Assembly: GCF_001270745.1 (NCBI RefSeq)
Contig: NZ_KQ434761.1
Span: 1-33,082 of the forward strand
Direction: 5' to 3'
From: Jiangella muralis
Lineage (GTDB): Bacteria; Actinomycetota; Actinomycetes; Jiangellales; Jiangellaceae
DNA length: 33,082 bases
In this document: positions 10,179-20,481 of the stretch, piece after piece
How the letters are laid out: the number at the start of each line of letters is the position of its first letter
Position numbering within the stretch: position 1 is the stretch's first letter
Translations under genes and position numbers: made by a program
The notes under the pieces: generated by a model
The model's database searches: none
Told to the model about the DNA's origin: nothing
What the model saw: only the letters and a program-made list of their open reading frames with translations

Positions 10179-13013
10179 ATGAACGAGCCCACCACTGACG
10201 ACGGAGACCGGCCGACGACGCCACCGGGCGCCGACGCCGCGAACCGGACCAGCCAGGCCGGCGCGGCGGACCAGCCCGGCGGCCGGACCGGCCGCAACGG
10301 CGAGGCCGCAGCGAGCAACCAGCCCGGCAGCGGCAACGGCCGCAACGGCGACCACGGCCAGACCGGCGCGAGCAACCAGCCCGGCAGCGGCAACGGCCGC
10401 AACGGCGACCACGGCCAGACCGGCGCGAGCAACCAGCCCGGCAGCGGCAACGGCCGCAACGGCGAGGCCGCAACGAGCAACCAGCCCAGCGGCGGCAACG
10501 GCCGCAACGGCGACCACGGCCAGACCGGCGCGAGCAACCAGCCCAGCGGCGGGACCGGCAGCATCGGTGGCCACGGCGACCACGGCCAGACCGGCGCGGG
10601 CGACCAGTCCCACCCGGGCAGCCAGTCCAGCGCCGGCCATCAGCCCGGCGGGAACGGCAGCAGCGGTGGCCACGGCGACCACGGCCAAAACCGCGGCAAC
10701 GGCGACCACCGTCGCAGCGGCGGCAACGGTCGCCCCGGCGGCAACGGCGGCAACGGCGCACCGGCCGAAACGCCCGCCGCTCCCCCGCGTCCCGGAGTGC
10801 TCGGCCGGTTGGCCGGGGTCTCCTATCGGCGCCGGGGCCGGGTGGTCGTGGCGTGGGTGGTGGCGATCGCCGCGGCGTTCGGGCTGTCCGCCGCGTTCGC
10901 CGGCGACTTCACCGCCGACTACTCGGCGCCCGGCTCGGACTCCCGCCAGGCCCAGGACCTGCTGGAGCAGCGCTTCCCGGCGCAGTCCGGCGACACCATC
11001 GACGTCGTCGTGCGGACGGATGGGGCGGCGGTCACCGACCCCGACGTGCAGGCCGACGTCGCTGCGCTGCTCGACGAGCTGCGTGGCCAGCCGCACGTGG
11101 TCGCCGTCGACGACCCGTACACGACACCGGGCGGCCTCAGCCAGAACGGGGACATCCTCGTCGCGACGGTGAACCTGGACGTCGTGCTGCCGGACGACAT
11201 GCCGGTCGAGGAGACCGAAGAGCTCCTGGCGATGGCCGACGCGGCCGAGCGGCCGGGGTTGGAGATCGCGCTCGGCGGGCAGACCATCGCGCTGGCCGAG
11301 CAGGGCGAGATCGGCTCCGAGGCCATCGGCATGGCTGCCGCCGCGGTGATCCTGCTCATCACGTTCGGCACGGTCGTCGCCGCGGGGCTGCCGCTGATCG
11401 TCGCGATTGCCGGGCTGGCGCTGAGTGGCATGCTCACCGGGCTGGTCGCGGCCGTCGCCGACGTGCCGGACTGGTCGACGGCGCTGGCGACGATGATGGG
11501 CATCGCGCTCGGCATCGACTACGTCCTGCTCATGGTGACGCGGTTCCGCGAGTGGCGCGCCGCCGGCCTCGACCCGGAGCGGGCGACCATCGCGACGCTG
11601 GACACCGCCGGCCGCGCGGTCATGGTCGCCGGCAGCACCGTCATGATCAGCATGCTCGGCCTGTTCGCGATGGGCCTGACGTTCATGCAGGGCGCCGCGC
11701 TCGTGACGATCGTCGCCGTCCTCGTCGTCATGGCCGCCGCCGCGACGCTGTTCCCGGCGCTGCTCGGCTTCTTCGGCAGCTGGGTCGACCGCCTCCGCCT
11801 CCCGCTGGGCCGCCGGCAACGGCCGACGGCGCAACTGGCCGCGGGCGGGCACGTCGAGCCGTCGCGGACGTGGCTGCGCTGGGGCCGGTTGGTCGACCGG
11901 CACAGCATCATCGCGACGGTGGTCGGCGTCGGTCTGCTGCTGGCGCTCGCGGCGCCGTTCCTCGGCGTCCGCTTCGGCTTCCCCGACGCCGGCAACAACG
12001 AGGAGGACCGCTCGTCGCGGCAGGCGTACGACCTGCTGTCCGAGGGCTTCGGCCCGGGTGCCAACGGCCCGCTGCTGCTGGTCGCGGACCTGGACGACCC
12101 CGGCGACGAGGCCGCGCTACCGGCGCTGGCCGAGGCCGTCGCCGCGACCCCGGGCGTCGCCGCCGTCCTGCCGCCCGCCGTCACCGAGGCCGGTGACGCC
12201 GCGCTGCTCACCGTTCTCCCGGCGACCGGTCCACAGGACGCGGCGACGGAGGACGTTGTCCACACCCTGCGCGACGACGTGTTGCCGGGCGCCGGCGTCG
12301 AGGTACACGTCGGCGGTGTCACGGCGACGTCGATCGACTCGACCGAGAACACGGCCGAGCGGCTGCCGCTGCTGATCGGCGGCGTCGTGATCCTGTCGAT
12401 GATCCTGCTGCTGGTGTCGTTCCGCAGCATCGTCATCCCGATCACCGCGGCGCTGATGAACCTGCTCTCCGTCGCCGCCGCGTACGGCGTGGTCGCGCTG
12501 GTGCTGGAGGGCGGCTGGGCCGGCCAGCTGATCGGCATCGACACCGAGACGCCGATGCCGGCGTTCATCCCGGTGCTGGTGTTCGCCGTGCTGTTCGGGC
12601 TGTCGATGGACTATGAGGTGTTCCTGATCAGCCGCATGCGCGAAGCGTGGACGCGGACCGGCGACAACGGCCGGGCGATCGTCGAAGGGCTGGCCGGCAC
12701 GGGGCGGGTCATCACGGCCGCGGCGGCGATCATGGTCGCGGTGTTCGCGGCGTTCATCCCGAGCCCCGAGGTGTTCCTCAAGGTCATCGGCGTCGGCATG
12801 GCCGCGGCGATCCTCGTCGACGCCACCGTCGTGCGGATGCTGCTGGTCCCCGCCGTCATGCACCTGCTCGGACGGGCCAACTGGTGGCTGCCGTCCTGGC
12901 TGGAGCGCCGGCTGCCCCAGCTGCACGTCGAGGGCCGGCCGGAGCTCTACCTCCCCGACGGGGACGGCCGCAGCCGCGACGCGGACGAGCCGGAGCTGGT
13001 CCCCGTCCGCTGA
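10179..13013 (+). CDS. MMPL/RND-family membrane transporter
   Basis: This encodes 944 aa. Residues 1-200 are hydrophilic and low in complexity, rich in Asn, Gly, Gln and His, with a tandem 19-residue repeat (about 46-140). Then come two MMPL halves, each with one membrane segment, an extracellular loop and five further segments. The proton-relay Asp-Tyr pairs of the family are present: D447/Y448 (LGIDYVLLMVTRFREW) and D811/Y812 (LSMDYEVFLISRMREAW). Members export lipids, siderophores or drugs using the proton gradient. The ATG at 10179 is preceded by GAGGGG and matches the end of the operator region. The divergent tetR is the likely regulator. The substrate is unknown. The long N-terminal extension is odd for the family and should lie in the cytoplasm. 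Confidence 0.92.
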   Translation: MNEPTTDDGDRPTTPPGADAANRTSQAGAADQPGGRTGRNGEAAASNQPGSGNGRNGDHGQTGASNQPGSGNGRNGDHGQTGASNQPGSGNGRNGEAATSNQPSGGNGRNGDHGQTGASNQPSGGTGSIGGHGDHGQTGAGDQSHPGSQSSAGHQPGGNGSSGGHGDHGQNRGNGDHRRSGGNGRPGGNGGNGAPAETPAAPPRPGVLGRLAGVSYRRRGRVVVAWVVAIAAAFGLSAAFAGDFTADYSAPGSDSRQAQDLLEQRFPAQSGDTIDVVVRTDGAAVTDPDVQADVAALLDELRGQPHVVAVDDPYTTPGGLSQNGDILVATVNLDVVLPDDMPVEETEELLAMADAAERPGLEIALGGQTIALAEQGEIGSEAIGMAAAAVILLITFGTVVAAGLPLIVAIAGLALSGMLTGLVAAVADVPDWSTALATMMGIALGIDYVLLMVTRFREWRAAGLDPERATIATLDTAGRAVMVAGSTVMISMLGLFAMGLTFMQGAALVTIVAVLVVMAAAATLFPALLGFFGSWVDRLRLPLGRRQRPTAQLAAGGHVEPSRTWLRWGRLVDRHSIIATVVGVGLLLALAAPFLGVRFGFPDAGNNEEDRSSRQAYDLLSEGFGPGANGPLLLVADLDDPGDEAALPALAEAVAATPGVAAVLPPAVTEAGDAALLTVLPATGPQDAATEDVVHTLRDDVLPGAGVEVHVGGVTATSIDSTENTAERLPLLIGGVVILSMILLLVSFRSIVIPITAALMNLLSVAAAYGVVALVLEGGWAGQLIGIDTETPMPAFIPVLVFAVLFGLSMDYEVFLISRMREAWTRTGDNGRAIVEGLAGTGRVITAAAAIMVAVFAAFIPSPEVFLKVIGVGMAAAILVDATVVRMLLVPAVMHLLGRANWWLPSWLERRLPQLHVEGRPELYLPDGDGRSRDADEPELVPVR
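10314..10598 (+). repeat. In-frame tandem repeat of 57 bp in the MMPL gene
   Basis: Five units follow each other: 57, 57, 48, 57 and about 66 bp. The first two encode SNQPGSGNGRNGDHGQTGA identically. The third lacks three residues and ends EAAT, the fourth has PSGG for PGSG, and the fifth carries extra residues. The DNA copies are nearly identical, which suggests recent slippage or unequal recombination. Confidence 0.85.
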
Positions 13014-13027
13014 TCCGGCGCGACACC

Positions 13028-13180
13028 GAAACGATCAGGTGACCAACCGGGCACTACAACGCCGGTTTGGTCACCTGATCGTTTCATGTCCACATCGTGG
13101 AGATGATCAGGTGACGAAGGGCGCCGTCCTGCGGGCGGTTCGTCACCTGATCGTCTTCGCGAAAACGATCAGGTGACGAA
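13028..13180. repeat. Composite palindromic element, copy 1
   Basis: Five alternating half-sites with core GATCAGGTGA or its reverse complement start at 13033(+), 13071(-), 13105(+), 13143(-) and 13167(+). The first pair forms a perfect 19-bp stem (13028-13046 with 13067-13085). The second pair forms a 17-bp stem with one mismatch (13102-13118 with 13139-13155). The linker 13086-13104 contains GTCCACAT and GTGGAGA. The element fills the gap between the convergent MMPL and glutamate dehydrogenase genes, so it can act as a two-way terminator, but a matching copy at 19563 shows it is a repeat family. Confidence 0.85.
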
Positions 13181-13190
13181 GCCGGGCGGG

Positions 13191-16100
13191 CTACGTCGCG
13201 TCGGGACGGAGCAGGCCGCGGACGGCGCGCAGGCCGACCGAGAGGCGGGCGAGGTCGAAGCTGTCGCCCTCGACGATCTCGCGCAGCATGCCCTGGGTCC
13301 GGGCGACGACGACGTCGTCCTGGGCGGCCCACGCCTCGACCCGGTCCTGCGGCGCCGCCTCCTCGTGCGTGTGCTGGATGACCTGCGCCGTCAGCGCCGC
13401 CTGGACGCCGTGGAGGTCGTCGCGCAGGGCGGCCCGGGCCATCGTCTGCCAGCGGTCGCGCCGCGGCAGCGAGATGATCCGCTCCAGCAGCCGGCCCAGT
13501 TCGAGGAAGGCGCCGAGGGTGAAGTGCACCCGCGCCACCTCGAGCAGGTCGGTGCCGGTGGCCAGCGAGTTCTCCACCATCCCGAGCCCGGCGTAGGCCG
13601 GCGGCAGCACCGCGACCCGGTTGGCCAGCGGCTCCGGCACGCCGTCGGCGGCCAGCGCCTCCAGCCGCTCGTGGTAGAGGTCCAGCTCGCGGCCGGACAG
13701 CACCTCGGGCAGCGCCACCAGCAGGCGGGCGATCGGCTCTTCGAAGAACCCGATCTGCCAGGCGATGTCGATCGGTGGCCGGCGGTTGACGGTGAGCCAG
13801 CGGGTGGCCCGCTCGGTGATCGTCCGCGCCTCCAGCCGCATGCGGGTCTGGACGTCGAACGCGACGACGTTGTCGAGCTCCTTGATCGCGACCATGAGGT
13901 CGGGGATCTGGAAGACGACGCCGCCGACGGTGTGCGCGCGGGCGAGGTCCTCGACGGTGCCGCCGGTCTCCATGCCCAGCCGGTACGCGAACGTCGTGCC
14001 GGCGGTGTTCACCAGCTCGTTGACCACGACGTTCGAGATGATCTCGCGGCGCAGCGGATGGTTGTCGATGACCTCGCCGTAGGTGTCGCGCAGCGCGCTC
14101 GGGAAGTACGCGTGCAGCGCGGCGCCGAGGTACGGGTCGTCGGGCATGCCGCCGGCCAGCAGCTCCTCGTACATGAGGTTCTTCGTGTACGCGAGGACGA
14201 CGGACAGCTCCGGGCTGGTCAGGCCCTTGCCGGCGGCCATGCGCTCAGCCAGCTGGCGGTCCGTCGGCAGCGCCTCGATGGCGCGGTCGAGCTTGCCCTG
14301 GCTCTCCAGCTTGGCGAGGTAGGAGCGGTGGACGTGGGCCAGGTTCGGCGCCTGGAACACGCCGTTGGCCAGCGCGATGTTCTGGCCGTAGTTGTTCGTC
14401 AGCACGAGGCCGGCGATCTCGTCGGTCATCTCGGCCAGCAGCTCGTTGCGCTGCTTCTCGGTGAGGTCGCCGGCCCGGACGACGCCGTCGAGCAGGATCT
14501 TGATGTTCACCTCGTGGTCGGAGGTGTCGACGCCGGCGGAGTTGTCGATGGCGTCGGTGTTGACCCGGCCGCCGGCCAGCGCGAACTCGATGCGGCCGCG
14601 CTGGGTCAGGCCCAGGTTGCCGCCCTCGCCGACGACCTGGGCACGCAGGTCACTGGCGTCGATGCGGATGGCGTCGTTGGCCTTGTCGCCCACCTCGGCG
14701 TTGGACTCCGTGGACGCCTTCACGTAGGTGCCGATGCCGCCGTTCCAGAGCAGGTCGACGGGGGCGCCGAGGATGGCGTGCATCAGCTCGGGCGGCGACA
14801 TCGTCTCGACCGACGCGTCGATGCCCAGCGCCTGCTTGACCTCGGCGGACAGCTTGATCGTCTTCGCCGTGCGCGGGTAGACGCCGCCGCCCTCGCTGAT
14901 CAGCTTGGGCTCGTAGTCGTTCCAGCTGGACCGCGGCAGCTCGAAGAGGCGACGGCGCTCGGCGTAGGACTCCGCCGCGTCGGGGTCGGGATCGAGGAAG
15001 ATGTGCCGGTGGTCGAACGCGGCCACCAGCCGGATGTGCTCGGACAGCAGCATGCCGTTGCCGAACACGTCGCCGGACATGTCGCCGACGCCGACGACGG
15101 TGAAGTCCTCGGCCTGCACGTCGCGGCCGAGCTGGCGGAAGTGCCGCCGCACCGACTCCCAGGCGCCGCGGGCGGTGATGCCCATGGCCTTGTGGTCGTA
15201 GCCGGCCGACCCGCCGGACGCGAACGCGTCGCCGAGCCAGAAGCCGTACTCCTGGGAGACGTCGTTGGCGATGTCGGAGAACGACGCGGTGCCCTTGTCG
15301 GCCGCGACCACGAGGTACGGGTCGTCGCCGTCGTGGCGGACGACCATCGGCGGCGGGACGACGCTGCGGTCGGCGGCGCGGTTGTCGGTGATGTCGAGCA
15401 TGGCCCGGATGAACGTCTTGTAGCACTCGACGCCCTCGGCCAGCCACGCCTCGCGGTCGACGGCGGGGTCGGGCAGCCGCTTGCCGACGAAGCCGCCCTT
15501 CGCGCCGACCGGGACGATGACGGAGTTCTTCACCGCCTGCGCCTTGACCAGGCCGAGGATCTCCGTCCGGAAGTCCTCGCGCCGGTCGGACCAGCGCAGC
15601 CCGCCGCGCGCGACGGCGCCGTAGCGCAGGTGCACGCCCTCGACCCGGGGCGAGTACACCCAGATCTCGTACTTCGGCTTGGGGTCGGGGAGGTCGGGCA
15701 GCGACCGGGAGTCGAGCTTGAAGCTGGTGACGGTCTGCGGCCCGCCGACGGTGGTGCGGTAGTAGCTGGTCCGCAGCGTCGCCTTCACCAGCCGCAGGAA
15801 CGAGCGCAGGATGCGGTCCTGGTCGAGGCTGGCGACCTGGTCGAGGGCCTCGTCGATGCGCCCGTTCAGCTGGTCGGCGGCCGTCTGCCTGGCGGCGCGG
15901 CCGGTGTCGTCGGCGCCGTAGCGCTCGGGGTCGAACCGGATCTCGAACAGGTCGACGAGCATGCGCGCCACCTCGACGTGGCCCGAGAGCGCCTCCTCGA
16001 GGTAGTTCTGGCTGAACGTCGTGCCGGTCTGGCGCAGGTACTTGGCGTACGCGCGCAGGATCGACGCCTGCCGCCACGACAGCCCCGCCTGCGGCACCAG

Positions 16101-18068
16101 CGCGTTGAACCCGTCGCTCTCGGCGTCGCCCCGCCACACCGCGGCGAACGCGTCCTGGAACAGCACCTTGAGGCGGTCGGCCTCGGTGGCGCGCAGCCCG
16201 CGGTAGCGCAGCCCGAAGTCGTAGATGTACGCCGTCGACTCGGTGTCGTGGCCGCGCCGGACGATCTCGTACGGCCGCTCGTCGACCACCTCGACGCCCA
16301 TGCGCGACAGGATGGGCAGCACCTGGGTGAGCGAGATGGGCGTGCCGGTGCGGTAGATCTTGAACCGGCGGTCGGTGGCCAGCCCACCGACCGGCTGGTA
16401 GAGGTTCATGCCCAGGCCGTCCTCGGCCGGCAGCTCCTCGAGGCGGCGGACGTCGGCCACCGCCGTCCGCGCCGGGAAGTCGGCCTTGTAGCCCTCCGGG
16501 AACGCCTGCCGGTACCGGCGCAGCAGCTTCGCCGCGCCCTCCTCGCCGACCTGCTCGGCCAGCGCGTCGGACAGCTCGTCGATCCACGAACGGGTGGCGC
16601 CGACCAGGTTCTTCTCCAGCGACGGGACGTCGATGGCGGGCAGCTCCTGGTCGCGCCGCATGCGCACGACGAAATGCAGCCGGGCCAGCGCCGCCTCGCC
16701 GACCCGCGCGGTGAAGTCGATGGAGTCGCCGTCGGTGGCGGCCAGCAGCAGCCGCTGGATGCGCTCGCGGACATCGGTGTTGTACCGGTCGCGCGGCAGG
16801 TAGACGAGGAACGACAGGTAGCGGCCGTAGTCGTCGCGGCGGACGAACATGCGCAGGTGACGGCGCTCCTGCAGGTGGACGACGGCGAGCGCGGTGGGCA
16901 GCAGCTCCTCGGGCGGGATCTGGAACAGCTCGTCGCGCGGGTACGTCTCGAGCACTTGCAACAGGTCCTTGCCGGAGTGCCCGGAGGGCGCGAATCCGGC
17001 CTGCTCGATGACCTCCTGGACCTTGCGCCGCAGCACCGGGATGCGCAGGACGCTCTCGGTGTAGGCGGCGGACGTGAACAGCCCGAGGAAGCGCCGCTCG
17101 CCGACCACCTCGCCGGACTCGTCGAACGTCTTGACCCCGACGTAGTCGAGGTAGGCCGGGCGGTGCACCGTCGCCTTCGAGTTGGCCTTGGTGAGCACCA
17201 GCAGCTGTTTCTCGCGCGCCTTGGCCCGCACCTCGCGTGGCAGCTTGCCGAACGAGCCGGAGAGGTCCTGGTCGGAGCGCAGGATGCCCAGGCCGGTGCC
17301 GGTGACCGCGCGCAGCACGTCCTCGCCGTCGACCTCGTCGAGCTGGTACTCGCGGTAGCCGAGGAAGGTGAAGTGGTCGTCGGCCAGCCAGCGCAGCAGC
17401 TCGCGCGCCTCGTCGGCCTCGGGCGACCTGATCGACGACGGCGGGTGCTCCAACTCGTCGGCGATGTCGATGGCGCGCTGGTGCATGCGCGGCCAGTCCT
17501 CGACCGCCTCGCGGACGTCGCGGAGGACGTCGCGCAGCAGCTGCTCGATGGCGGCTTGGTCGTCGGGGTCGTCGGTGCGGTCGATCTCGACGTGCATCCA
17601 CGACTCGACGACGGTGCCGGCGTCGCGCCGCCGGTCGTTCTCGTTGAGGTCGAGCACCTCGAGCAGCTGGCCGGTGATGTCGCGGCGGACCACCAGCTGC
17701 GGGTGCACGACGAGGCGGAGGGTGTGCTCGTGCTCGGACAGCGCCATGGTGACGGAGTCGACCAGGAACGGCATGTCGTCGATGACGACCTCGACGATGG
17801 TGTGCCCGGACGCCCAGCCGTGGTCGTCGACCGTCGGCGTGTAGACATTGACGACGGCGGTTCCCTGCGGCCGCAACTGGGCCGAGCGCCGGTGCGACGC
17901 GGCCACCCCGTAGACGTCGACGACGTCGCGGTCGACGAGGTCCTCGGCGGCGACGTGCCGGTAGTACCGGCGGAGGAAGGCTTCGTCCTCGTCGCGGCTC
18001 CCGCGGTCGCCGACCAGGGCAGCCTTGGCGAGGAGCTCGGATTTGGCTTCGTCGAGCCGATTACGCAT
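13191..18068 (-). CDS. NAD-specific glutamate dehydrogenase, large (180-kDa) type
   Basis: This encodes 1625 aa, the usual size for the large bacterial NAD-GDH (GDH-180, Bac_GDH family). It oxidatively deaminates glutamate to 2-oxoglutarate with NAD, feeding carbon into the TCA cycle. The N-terminal half carries ACT-like regulatory segments (for example VVNVYTPTVDDHGW and VEVVIDDMPFLVDSV). The catalytic core lies at about 750-1200 and includes RYGAVARGGLRWSDR, VPVGAKGGFVGK (Lys near 855), VVGVGDMSGDVFGNG and DLLWNGGIGTYVK, all highly conserved in the family. The ATG at 18068 has GGTGG five bases upstream; an upstream start at 18101 lacks one. In mycobacteria this enzyme is inhibited by GarA; no garA is in view. 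The downstream stop is 10 bp from the palindromic element. Confidence 0.96.
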   Translation of the reverse strand: MRNRLDEAKSELLAKAALVGDRGSRDEDEAFLRRYYRHVAAEDLVDRDVVDVYGVAASHRRSAQLRPQGTAVVNVYTPTVDDHGWASGHTIVEVVIDDMPFLVDSVTMALSEHEHTLRLVVHPQLVVRRDITGQLLEVLDLNENDRRRDAGTVVESWMHVEIDRTDDPDDQAAIEQLLRDVLRDVREAVEDWPRMHQRAIDIADELEHPPSSIRSPEADEARELLRWLADDHFTFLGYREYQLDEVDGEDVLRAVTGTGLGILRSDQDLSGSFGKLPREVRAKAREKQLLVLTKANSKATVHRPAYLDYVGVKTFDESGEVVGERRFLGLFTSAAYTESVLRIPVLRRKVQEVIEQAGFAPSGHSGKDLLQVLETYPRDELFQIPPEELLPTALAVVHLQERRHLRMFVRRDDYGRYLSFLVYLPRDRYNTDVRERIQRLLLAATDGDSIDFTARVGEAALARLHFVVRMRRDQELPAIDVPSLEKNLVGATRSWIDELSDALAEQVGEEGAAKLLRRYRQAFPEGYKADFPARTAVADVRRLEELPAEDGLGMNLYQPVGGLATDRRFKIYRTGTPISLTQVLPILSRMGVEVVDERPYEIVRRGHDTESTAYIYDFGLRYRGLRATEADRLKVLFQDAFAAVWRGDAESDGFNALVPQAGLSWRQASILRAYAKYLRQTGTTFSQNYLEEALSGHVEVARMLVDLFEIRFDPERYGADDTGRAARQTAADQLNGRIDEALDQVASLDQDRILRSFLRLVKATLRTSYYRTTVGGPQTVTSFKLDSRSLPDLPDPKPKYEIWVYSPRVEGVHLRYGAVARGGLRWSDRREDFRTEILGLVKAQAVKNSVIVPVGAKGGFVGKRLPDPAVDREAWLAEGVECYKTFIRAMLDITDNRAADRSVVPPPMVVRHDGDDPYLVVAADKGTASFSDIANDVSQEYGFWLGDAFASGGSAGYDHKAMGITARGAWESVRRHFRQLGRDVQAEDFTVVGVGDMSGDVFGNGMLLSEHIRLVAAFDHRHIFLDPDPDAAESYAERRRLFELPRSSWNDYEPKLISEGGGVYPRTAKTIKLSAEVKQALGIDASVETMSPPELMHAILGAPVDLLWNGGIGTYVKASTESNAEVGDKANDAIRIDASDLRAQVVGEGGNLGLTQRGRIEFALAGGRVNTDAIDNSAGVDTSDHEVNIKILLDGVVRAGDLTEKQRNELLAEMTDEIAGLVLTNNYGQNIALANGVFQAPNLAHVHRSYLAKLESQGKLDRAIEALPTDRQLAERMAAGKGLTSPELSVVLAYTKNLMYEELLAGGMPDDPYLGAALHAYFPSALRDTYGEVIDNHPLRREIISNVVVNELVNTAGTTFAYRLGMETGGTVEDLARAHTVGGVVFQIPDLMVAIKELDNVVAFDVQTRMRLEARTITERATRWLTVNRRPPIDIAWQIGFFEEPIARLLVALPEVLSGRELDLYHERLEALAADGVPEPLANRVAVLPPAYAGLGMVENSLATGTDLLEVARVHFTLGAFLELGRLLERIISLPRRDRWQTMARAALRDDLHGVQAALTAQVIQHTHEEAAPQDRVEAWAAQDDVVVARTQGMLREIVEGDSFDLARLSVGLRAVRGLLRPDAT

Positions 18069-18177
18069 GGATCCACCAACCCCCGGAACTAGACCCCGCA
18101 CGTCGTTGTACGGGACCTCTCAGAACCTTAGTAGCTCCCCGCGCGGTCCGCTGCCCGACCCCCGTTTCATGATCATC

Positions 18178-18981
18178 TCAAAGCCAGGAACGCAGCTCCC
18201 AGAGCAGCGGGTAGTAGCGGAAATCGAGGCGACTGCGCAGATAGGAGGCGCCGGACGAGCCGCCGGTGCCGGTTTTCGTCCCGATCATCCGTTCCACCAT
18301 CGTGACGTGCCGGGCCCGCCAGCCGGCGGCGAGCTCGTCATGTGACATCAGTCCCTCGGCCAGCTCCCAGACGTCGCCGAAGCCGCCCCGGTCATGCGCC
18401 GCCGTGCGCAGCGACGCGCTGATCTCGTCGTCCGTGCCGGTAGGGAGGTCGTGGGCCCGCATCGCCGCCAGGAACGCGTCCCACAGCGTCGGCTCGTCCA
18501 GCCGGCGCCGCAGCCGGGCCGCCTCGTCCTCCGTCAGGCCGCGGAACCGGCGCAGGAACGCCGCGTCCTTCGCGCCGGAGATGAACTCCAGCTCGCGGAA
18601 TTGCACCGACTGGAAACCGCTGGCCGGCGCCAGCTGGGCCCGGAACTGCAGGAAGTCCTGCGGCGTCATGGTCTCCAGGACGCCGACCTGCTCGATCAGG
18701 ATCCGCTCGATCTCGTGCACCCGGTTCAGCAGGTGCCGAGCCCACCACAGCCGGTCGTCGAACATCGCCTGCCGGGCCGCCTCCAGCTCGTGCAGCAGCT
18801 GTTTGAACCACAGCTCGTAGACCTGGTGGATGGTGATGAACAGCAGCTCGTCGTGAGCATCGGTCTCGAGACGCTGCTGGTCGAGCAGCTGCGCGAGACG
18901 CAGGTACGTGCCGTAACTGAGCCTGGCACCGTCCTCGCCGAACTGTGCGGACGGAGGGCTGATCTCCTTGTCGGTGGTCAC
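18178..18981 (-). CDS. Tryptophan 2,3-dioxygenase
   Basis: This encodes 267 aa, the normal size. The heme enzyme opens the indole ring of L-tryptophan with O2 to give N-formylkynurenine. Seen are LSYGTYLRL (Y23, Y26), the substrate-side His in FITIHQVYELWFKQLLHEL (H52), the proximal heme His in RHVTMVERMIG (H225), and the GTKTGTGGSSGASYL loop that closes over the substrate. The GTG at 18981 is chosen from the family N-terminus and because a TACGCT -10 ends six bases upstream, suggesting a leaderless transcript. It lies upstream of the glutamate dehydrogenase gene on the same strand, separated by about 110 bp. No kynureninase or formamidase gene is visible in the window. Confidence 0.95.
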   Translation of the reverse strand: MTTDKEISPPSAQFGEDGARLSYGTYLRLAQLLDQQRLETDAHDELLFITIHQVYELWFKQLLHELEAARQAMFDDRLWWARHLLNRVHEIERILIEQVGVLETMTPQDFLQFRAQLAPASGFQSVQFRELEFISGAKDAAFLRRFRGLTEDEAARLRRRLDEPTLWDAFLAAMRAHDLPTGTDDEISASLRTAAHDRGGFGDVWELAEGLMSHDELAAGWRARHVTMVERMIGTKTGTGGSSGASYLRSRLDFRYYPLLWELRSWL

Positions 18982-18987
18982 CTTGCC

Positions 18988-18993
18988 AGCGTA
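18988..18993 (-). promoter_or_regulatory. Leaderless-type -10 of the tryptophan dioxygenase gene
   Basis: TACGCT (minus strand, 18988-18993) stands six bases from the GTG at 18981. The divergent DUF2505 gene starts at 19013, so both promoters must share or overlap in this 31-bp gap or lie within the neighbouring genes. Confidence 0.4.
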
Positions 18994-19012
18994 TGGGTCA
19001 GGATGTGGAGCC

Positions 19013-19507
19013 ATGGACCTGTACAGCGAGCTGCGTTTCGACGCCGATCCGGTAGCGGTCTTCGCGATGCTGACCGACGAGGCATACATCGCGAAGAAGA
19101 CCATGGCCGCCAACGCGATCCGGCACCAGGCCTCCGTCCGCCGCGACGGCGACCGCGTCACCATCGACCTCCTGCGCGTCATGCCCCCGGACGTCCCCGA
19201 CTTCGTCCGCCGCTTCGTCGGCGAGACGATCGACATCAAGCAGCGGGACACCTGGGGTCCGGCCGCGGCGGACGGGTCGCGTGAGGGCAGCATCGAGCTC
19301 GAGATGTCCGGCGCGCCGGTCCGCGCCACCGGCACGATGACGCTGGCCGGCAACGGGGCCTCGACCGCGCTGACGATCAAGGGCCTGCTGAAGGCGTCGG
19401 TGCCGCTGGTCGGCGGGAAGATCGAGCAGGCGGTGCACCAGGGGTTGACGGAAGCGGCCCGCATCGAGGAGCGGGTCGGCCGGGACTGGCTCGCCGGACG
19501 GCGCTGA
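19013..19507 (+). CDS. DUF2505 (START-like/SRPBCC) protein
   Basis: This encodes 164 aa. It matches the actinobacterial DUF2505 family, thought to share the START-like helix-grip fold: an N-terminal strand and helix (LYSELRFDADPVAVFAMLTDEAYIAKK), a strand-rich middle and a long C-terminal helix (KASVPLVGGKIEQAVHQGLTEAARIEERVGRDWL). Such folds hold hydrophobic ligands; no ligand is known here. The ATG at 19013 has GTGGAG two bases upstream. It is divergent from the tryptophan dioxygenase gene with only 31 bp between starts. Confidence 0.85.
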   Translation: MDLYSELRFDADPVAVFAMLTDEAYIAKKTMAANAIRHQASVRRDGDRVTIDLLRVMPPDVPDFVRRFVGETIDIKQRDTWGPAAADGSREGSIELEMSGAPVRATGTMTLAGNGASTALTIKGLLKASVPLVGGKIEQAVHQGLTEAARIEERVGRDWLAGRR

Positions 19508-19902
19508 GCCGGACGGCGGGCGGCCAGGGCCGGACGGCGGACGGCCGGGCCCGGGTGGCGCAGAACGATCAGGTGACGAACCGTGCCGTTTCGACGTGCC
19601 GATGTCACCTGATCGTTTCGCGTCCACATGGTGGAGACGATCAGGTGACGAAGCGGCCGCCGTCGCCGGTGGGCTAGGTCACCTGATCGTTTCGGTACGG
19701 ATGATCAGGTGAGCCATCGGCGAACGTGCGCCCGCCGGGTTGCTGCGCGGAACCGAGTCCACCTCGGCTCCGCCGGCGAACGGCCCGGGCGGACATGCGT
19801 GTCCGACGGACGGTCGCCCGGCTGCCGTCCGAGCACCCCAGCGGAGCTGACACCGATTCCGTCAATCCAGAGAGCAGTTCATCGGAGCGAGGGAGCGCCC
19901 CC
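19508..19902. other. 395-bp convergent gap
   Basis: The first half holds GGCCGGACGGCGG-like short repeats (19510-19550) and copy 2 of the composite palindromic element. From 19720 to 19902 I see no gene, hairpin or promoter. Confidence 0.6.
19563..19714. repeat. Composite palindromic element, copy 2
   Basis: The five half-sites start at 19567(+), 19605(-), 19639(+), 19679(-) and 19703(+): intervals of 38, 34, 40 and 24 bp against 38, 34, 38 and 24 in copy 1. The linker between the second and third half-sites, GTCCACAT-GTGGAGA, is conserved, whereas the loops inside the stems differ. It lies between the convergent DUF2505 and Ala-rich protein genes. Confidence 0.85.
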
Positions 19903-20481
19903 TCAACGGCCCGGAACGCCGCCGTCCAGTGCGCGCAGCGCCACGTTGCGCTCGGCGGCACCGGCCCGGCGCCCCGGCTGCCGCGGCGCGGGGGCCTCGG
20001 CGGCCGCCGCGGGCGCGGCGTCGGCCGACTCGCGCTCCAGCAGCGCCTCGGCCAGCTCGGCCGGGCCCGTGACCGCCATGGCCAGCGCGCGACCGAGGTC
20101 GTCGCGGTCGATGGGCTCCTCGGCGGTGCGGCGCAGCCGGTCGGACAGGTCGATGACCTTGTCGGCCGTGCCGAGCGTCGCCCGAGCGGCCATGAGGTGA
20201 CCGCGCTGCAGCGGCCGGCCGGCGATCATCAGCGCCAGCGCCTCGGCGGTGTCGCTCCAGTCCGACGCCGGCGCCTGCTCCCCGATGAGGCCGGCGACCC
20301 CGGCCATCACCCGGTCGGACGCGGCGACGAGGCGCTCAGCCGTCTCGCTGTCGCTGTCGAGGGAGGCCAGCCGCAGTGCTACCGCGGTGACCAGTGCGCC
20401 GTCGGCGGGACTCCGACGGGGCTGGGACAGCAGCCGCACCGCTCGTGCGACGTACGGCCTGGTCGACAGCCGGTCATCCAT
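19903..20481 (-). CDS. Unrecognised Ala-rich helical protein
   Basis: This encodes 192 aa in a family I do not recognise. It is Ala/Leu/Arg-rich and predicted all-helical (about 1-145): ARAVRLLSQPRRSPADGALVTAVALRLASL, then RVMAGVAGLIGEQA, RGHLMAARATLGTADKVIDLSDRLRR and GRALAMAVTGPAELAEALLERE. A low-complexity Ala/Pro tail (about 148-172) and a short conserved-looking end follow. No signal peptide or catalytic motif is visible. GAGGTG lies upstream; the start could be the ATG at 20481 or the adjacent GTG at 20484. It stands alone, 305 bp after the patatin gene on the same strand. Codon use is like its neighbours, supporting a real gene. Confidence 0.6.
   Translation of the reverse strand: MDDRLSTRPYVARAVRLLSQPRRSPADGALVTAVALRLASLDSDSETAERLVAASDRVMAGVAGLIGEQAPASDWSDTAEALALMIAGRPLQRGHLMAARATLGTADKVIDLSDRLRRTAEEPIDRDDLGRALAMAVTGPAELAEALLERESADAAPAAAAEAPAPRQPGRRAGAAERNVALRALDGGVPGR

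Follow-up and report, generated by a model that had tools for sequence, protein, structure and literature searches.

We propose that the array at 19563..19714 is a member of a BIME-like repeat that is dispersed in the genomes of the soil-dwelling Jiangellaceae. The repeat is probably non-autonomous and moved in trans, with a few of its copies kept for a putative role at 3' ends. It is present in high copy number and has a characteristic architecture, its spacing recurs across genera, it lies behind genes, and it is absent from most of the orthologous places that we tested.

Two arrays of alternating sites

The window (the whole stretch of 33,082 nt from Jiangella muralis that was analyzed) contains 10 exact matches to GATCAGGTGA, in two groups of five, which we call copy 1 and copy 2. 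If one mismatch is allowed, then none of 100 shuffles of the window reach 10 matches (mean 1.54, maximum 5). The features are:

13028..13183, + strand: copy 1, five sites in the order + - + - +
13033 (+), 13071 (-), 13105 (+), 13143 (-), 13167 (+): starts of the GATCAGGTGA sites of copy 1, all exact matches
Neighbors of copy 1: MMPL gene on the + strand, with its stop at 13013; NAD-glutamate dehydrogenase (GDH) gene on the - strand, ending at 13191
19563..19714, + strand: copy 2, five sites in the order + - + - +
19567..19576, + strand: site 1 of copy 2, exact GATCAGGTGA match
19605..19614, - strand: site 2, exact GATCAGGTGA match
19615..19638, + strand: conserved linker GTTTCGCGTCCACATGGTGGAGAC between sites 2 and 3
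19639..19648, + strand: site 3, exact GATCAGGTGA match
19679..19688, - strand: site 4, exact GATCAGGTGA match
19703..19712, + strand: site 5, the tail site at the spacing of 26, an exact GATCAGGTGA match that has the 10-mer ATCAGGTGAC with its last base changed
Neighbors of copy 2: DUF2505 gene on the + strand, with its stop at 19507; an open reading frame on the - strand that ends at 19903 and has no hit in Pfam

The first-pass annotation described an order of + - + - + in both copies, with intervals of 38, 34, 38, and 24 bp in copy 1 and 38, 34, 40, and 24 bp in copy 2, and this is exactly what we found. (The interval of 40 bp is 2 bp off the norm for the family.) It also described a shared linker and diverged loops: in our alignment, GTCCACAT-GTGGAGA is the same in both copies, and the stretches between sites 1 and 2 and between sites 3 and 4 differ. 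Which parts are called stems and which loops is relative, as every inner site can pair with either of its neighbors. So, the observation is confirmed, and its interpretation (selection on structure or on protein binding, or recent copying of a mobile repeat) is partly supported, as described below.

A repeat family with regular spacing

In the 7.27 Mb genome of J. muralis, ATCAGGTGAC has 81 exact matches on the forward strand and 85 on the reverse strand, whereas the reversed pattern, used as a control, has one on each strand. We examined 164 of these 166 sites (in 60 stretches plus the window), and 158 of the 164 are in 43 clusters of at least two sites. The commonest layouts are + - + - + (13 clusters) and + - + - (12 clusters), and the typical spacing between 10-mers is 36, 36, 36, and then 26 to the tail site. 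Among pairs of neighboring 10-mers, the distance from + to - is 36 in 60 pairs and 37 in 11, and the distance from - to + is 36 in 36 pairs and 26 in 17; a few pairs have other distances. The site unit is 10-16 bp, in alternating orientation, with one conserved linker and free spacers of 26 bp. One contig (C6, 381,785 bases) has no exact core sites in our list of sites, which is complete up to C9:71040; about two clusters would be expected, and this may be due to chance.

A pattern search of our collection of species returned 62 stretches, 61 of them from four relatives (Jiangella anatolica, J. asiatica, Haloactinopolyspora alba, and Phytoactinopolyspora alkaliphila). The remaining stretch is a single pair of sites in Gordonia. 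The pattern restricted the + to - distance to 33-43 and left the - to + distance free, so independent evidence for a shared layout comes only from the - to + distances and from the sharpness of the + to - peak inside the range. The same layout is found in 47 clusters from H. alba, 11 from J. anatolica, and 4 from P. alkaliphila, and the number of exact sites per genome is 166 in J. muralis, 110 in G003, 261 in H. alba (G018), and 5 in G011. H. alba often has an extra direct site 19 bp further on (35 such steps in 47 clusters; the mean match at offset 19 is 5.5 of 10 positions, versus 2.5 over all offsets), as P. alkaliphila does twice in four loci. A sixth site at this offset was not above background in the copies from J. 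muralis. Searches of viral contigs (by pattern), plasmids (with copy 2), and phages (with copy 1) gave no match.

We also note a separate repeat of 160-161 bp in the J. muralis genome, with inverted ends of 18 bp (GGGTGTGTCTCCCGGGTC; L280, L283, L291, L302, L306, and L299). With up to 3 mismatches allowed, these ends have 35 forward and 33 reverse matches, versus 2 forward and 0 reverse matches for the control. One homogeneous subfamily of the array (including L115, L121, L125, L126, L128, L132, and L139) lies inside copies of this repeat, mostly with changed ends, so this subfamily appears to hitch-hike on a MITE-like element.

Placement behind genes

Genes were called with a home-made codon-based caller, and the genes that flank both window copies were checked against Pfam. 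All 43 of the 43 clusters in J. muralis are intergenic and overlap predicted genes by 9 bp at most. The gaps that contain them are convergent in 18 cases, tandem in 23, and divergent in 2, as compared to 46, 160, and 113 among the remaining gaps that are 100 bp or longer. Convergent gaps are in excess (Fisher p = 6e-5) and divergent gaps are scarce (p = 8e-6). The clusters in H. alba are in 20 convergent, 20 tandem, and 4 divergent gaps, with 3 unplaced (other gaps: 9, 49, and 43). Among clusters of at least three sites from J. muralis, H. alba, J. anatolica, and P. alkaliphila, 39 of the 43 in tandem gaps are nearer to the upstream stop codon than to the downstream start codon (20 of 21 in J. 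muralis). The recurrent neighbors of the arrays, as identified by Pfam, are tig with clpP and MMPL with GDH; in the window, copy 1 takes up almost all of the 177 bp gap between MMPL and GDH.

Both window copies are strong hairpins behind a stop codon (folding z = -10.5 for copy 1 and -5.6 for copy 2), and together with the position of the tandem clusters, this agrees with what is expected of terminators. No terminator with a U-tract was predicted at 13028-13183 or 19563-19714, and Rfam gave no match above the gathering score within 12900-20000 (three matches to microRNAs were far below it; the best of these, over copy 1, had E = 0.028). Two-way intrinsic terminators that lack a U-tract are strong hairpins between convergent genes. 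The arrays, as putative terminators, resemble them in this respect, but form a repeat family with unrelated flanks.

Two observations bear on how this placement should be read. First, among the same clusters of at least three sites, the orientation relative to the upstream gene is the same in 5 cases and opposite in 16 in J. muralis (p = 0.027), and the same in 10 cases and opposite in 8 in H. alba (p = 0.81). The orientation is not constant, and it does not fit a role for an RNA from one strand. Second, convergent gaps without the element are likewise rich in hairpins (median z = -2.7), so the placement of the arrays may reflect tolerance only.

Absence from orthologous places

If the repeat is mobile, as had been suggested, then related species might have unoccupied sites. 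The element is absent from the copy 1 gap in all 8 of the sister species for which both anchors were found (G006 lacked both anchors, and G005 and G002 are outside the set), and it is absent from the copy 2 gap in 9 of 9 (G001 lacked both anchors, and G002 is outside the set). We compared 16 further loci with the close relatives G010 and G004; one of these (L101) has no orthologue, which leaves 15. At 13 of the 15, G010 or G004 can be aligned on both sides of the locus and lacks the element. At L127, the left flank alone aligns with the close relatives; at L131, G010 has a related array, and the left flank alone aligns in G004. The absences at the window gaps and at most of the further loci imply that the repeat spreads or turns over, and with the 43 clusters across the genome, they bear out the suggestion of copying. 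At three junctions that we read closely, the overlaps were 11, 24 (diverged), and 0 bp, which means that no target-site duplication of constant length is present.

The copy 1 gap of the sister species folds at z ≤ -4.8 in 7 of 8 cases (the exception is G007, at -2.3). These other strong hairpins suggest that a hairpin is wanted there. The copy 2 gap of the sister species has modest hairpins, with z below -3 in 3 of 9. We also note that the convergent gap between MMPL and NAD-GDH contains different long palindromes in different species of Jiangella (L162-L166, L168, L169, and L170). By eye, the palindrome of G003 resembles the GTTGATCTTGGAG repeat of J. muralis (L113:14178 and L120:7265), and the palindrome of G009 resembles its CCATGATCATGTTCCC palindrome (L140:2221).

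Conservation and covariation in scattered copies

In subfamily B (14 copies), which is the one subfamily that can be aligned throughout, divergence from the consensus is 2.0% in the cores, 1.1% in the linker, 8.7% in the spacers, and 30-35% outside. The cores and the linker are thus 4-8 times less diverged than the spacers, although the comparison for the cores is somewhat biased because the copies were located via their cores. Within this subfamily, then, the earlier claim that stems and linker are conserved and loops are free holds.

Compensatory changes in the scattered copies are not convincing. In 59 hairpins with spacers of 26 bases, we counted 318 pairs, which is fewer than the 372 in shuffled data, and in 31 non-redundant spacers there were 181 pairs versus 194 expected (p = 0.92). 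None of the 35 changed core positions in the scattered copies of J. muralis are compensated. In a wider scan, we found three matched variant pairs in H. alba and two in one tig array (L264 in G017), and none in the copies from J. muralis, J. anatolica, or P. alkaliphila. A set of 39 non-redundant spacers fold better than their own shuffles (mean z = -1.04), but spacer halves from different copies fold equally well as true pairs, so the folding of the spacers reflects a shared bias and not pairwise matching. Among 66 distinct linkers, two pairs at the tip exceed shuffles (p = 0.022 and p below 0.001) and the remaining pairs do not; as a rule of thumb was used to orient the linkers, we do not count this excess as support.

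A hairpin between tig and clpP1

One array locus is common to four species of three genera. It lies between the genes for trigger factor (tig) and ClpP1 (L155:2146-2183, L055:5535, L029:3967, and L067:3226). A hairpin with the same core is found there in 14 species: all 12 species of Jiangella, H. alba (G018), and G021. The core has one base changed in G009 and two in G005. (The pattern for this hairpin, which permits two variable positions per arm, was drawn up once G005 and G009 had been inspected.) We inspected 20 tig loci and aligned 14 of them. The six that were left out after inspection have decayed arrays (G015 and G017) or no visible hairpin (G012, G013, G016, and G019; these four genomes of the family have no site between tig and clpP1). 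G014 and G020 are outside the locus set, and where G018 has two hairpins, the first alone was aligned.

In the alignment of 14 rows, 89.9% of the cells pair. The covariation score is 0.152, versus 0.075 for shuffled alignments (0 of 500 reach the actual score), and structures that were slid along the alignment scored at most 0.042. Five pairs are changed on both sides, versus 3.1 in shuffled alignments (12 of 500 reach five); because the rows are related, these numbers of shuffles should not be read as probabilities. At the outer end of the stem, four pairs are broken in 5-7 of the 14 rows. So, the suggestion of selection on structure, which was to be checked by looking for compensatory changes, stands for the inherited copy at tig-clpP1 and not for the scattered copies.

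The spacing at this locus is 23-24 in 10 of the 12 species of Jiangella and 36-39 in G003, G006, G018, and G021, so it seems to have shrunk. The family appears to have become established here, behind a single chaperone gene, as an RNA hairpin that is conserved, and this is probably the clearest case of a copy that was kept for a role at a 3' end. The hairpin could also lie in the leader of clpP1 and affect the Clp operon. In G017, the cores of the tig-clpP1 array (L264:930-1230) have drifted to ATCAGATGCA and ATCAGGCGCA, each of which is matched within its own hairpin.

Proposed explanation and alternatives

We propose that a candidate enzyme, which would act in trans and would not belong to the PF01797 family of Y1/HUH transposases, recognizes the spaced sites and makes or moves copies. 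Insertions would survive mainly behind stop codons, and adjacent inverted sites would form strong hairpins in the 3' RNA. These hairpins might serve as two-way terminators without U-tracts or as stabilizers of 3' ends, and a few copies would then be retained for this role, most clearly the hairpin at tig-clpP1.

The array might instead be a cluster of protein-binding sites (a transposase end, or a site for a nucleoid protein or of the gyrase type), in which case a nucleoprotein complex would use the inverted order and the fixed phase of 36 bp, and the RNA hairpin would be a by-product. This is a tentative alternative that we take seriously. BIMEs are described as binding IHF and gyrase in passages of PMC2817692, and a binding site could explain why the spacing recurs across genera while the spacer sequence is free, why the linker, in addition to the pairing core, is strongly conserved, why H. 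alba has a direct sixth site 19 bp on, and why the scattered copies lack convincing compensation. However, the inherited copy at tig-clpP1 covaries; its change in spacing would hardly be tolerable for a protein site of fixed phase; and placement behind stop codons fits a role in RNA.

It is somewhat unlikely that the array is only a selfish, MITE-like repeat that persists in harmless spots, with hairpins that have no role. The absence of copies from close relatives at most of the loci tested fits this explanation, as do the lack of a constant preference in orientation and the subfamily that rides within the 160 bp repeat with inverted ends. Against it speak the conservation of cores and linker above spacers in subfamily B, the retention of the tig-clpP1 hairpin in 12 of 12 species of Jiangella with compensatory changes, and the other strong hairpins that sister species have in the gap of copy 1.

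Alternatively, the copies could have been inherited vertically from an ancestor that had them everywhere and then lost independently in the sister species. Indeed, several genera or species have an array in certain gaps: MMPL-GDH, where H. alba carries an element of the family in the same gap (L014); L116/L028/L063; L130/L065; and tig-clpP1. Nevertheless, this is improbable, as it requires losses in 8 of 8 sister species for copy 1 and 9 of 9 for copy 2 and at 13 of the 15 further loci. It is very improbable that the array is a REP or BIME proper that is mobilized by a RAYT (Y1/HUH) transposase: the alternating and regularly spaced sites, in intergenic regions behind genes, are as in BIMEs (passages of PMC2817692 and PMC3733652), but one site alone is not palindromic, and the PF01797 profile (the Y1 family of RAYTs), which matches 5 of 14 control genomes, matches none of 22 genomes of Jiangellaceae.

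Relation to known repeats

As for other signs of a mobilizing enzyme, a search of the J. muralis genome for RAYTs found none, so the suggested link to a RAYT-like transposase is not borne out. We did not recognize a transposase among the neighbors of the arrays, a minority of which were compared with a family library; in L032 and L053, the genes that separate the paired arrays were judged by the start of their translations only.

RAYTs are the proposed movers of BIMEs (passages of PMC2817692 and PMC3733652). According to the same passages, BIMEs and REP dimers are short inverted units, alternating and regularly spaced, in intergenic regions behind coding regions and between convergent or unidirectional genes, with spacers that are conserved in one type of dimer and variable in the other. 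All of this resembles the repeat in Jiangella, whose units are extragenic (43 of 43 clusters), numerous, inverted, and regularly alternating. In contrast to BIMEs, we found no RAYT/Y1 gene in 22 genomes of Jiangellaceae, and a layout of four to six sites recurs across genera. Also, a unit of REPs or BIMEs is an imperfect palindrome of 20-40 bp, whereas ATCAGGTGAC cannot pair with itself, and it takes two sites to make a self-complementary stretch. By eye, there is no constant unpaired tag (GTAG or CGTC). Base counts show that CGTC is frequent at the sites because C often precedes GTCACC, but it is inside the pairing stretch.

CGTC REPs are a closer parallel in one respect: passages of PMC3733652 describe them as lacking a dedicated transposase. 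They are also palindromic, intergenic, and often dimeric, like the repeat in Jiangella. As described there, they have stems of 8-9 bp, loops of 4-5 bp, and an unpaired CGTC tag, while the paired stretches in Jiangella are longer, with loops of 26 or 16 bases and no constant unpaired tag. The passage on their distribution gives five phyla, and Actinomycetota is not among them. MITEs are similar to our repeat in being short, non-autonomous, and dispersed, with inverted sites and with unoccupied places in relatives. The repeat in Jiangella differs from MITEs in that neither its end sequence nor a target duplication is constant (at the three junctions) and in that we could find no autonomous partner.

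A literature search for GATCAGGTGAC gave papers that are unrelated, judged by their titles and the openings of their abstracts, and we found no report of the repeat in Jiangellaceae in a search that mostly covered papers outside of subscription. The main text of PMC12306157 does not contain the word Jiangella, and the passages of the J. gansuensis genome paper that use "palindromic" or "repeat" concern CRISPR only (PMC5292007). From the sequences, we read the family as interspersed repeats of a BIME-like type without RAYTs, some of whose hairpins are retained as putative 3'-end (terminator-type) structures.

Implications

A bolder version of our explanation is that the array is a mobile terminator: a candidate non-HUH enzyme would read the fixed layout of multiple sites and insert the array behind genes, where it would supply two-way terminators. 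We consider this to be unlikely. If it were true, then different species would have different families of hairpins in the same convergent gap, which would need a hairpin throughout, and the copy at tig-clpP1 would be a domesticated case.

More broadly, the repeat in Jiangella is a BIME-like system in actinobacteria, and the transposase family that is held responsible elsewhere was not found with it. Its copies form a natural series, which runs from scattered ones, where compensation is not convincing, to an inherited one that shows it. This series makes it testable whether mobile palindromes yield new 3'-end signals.
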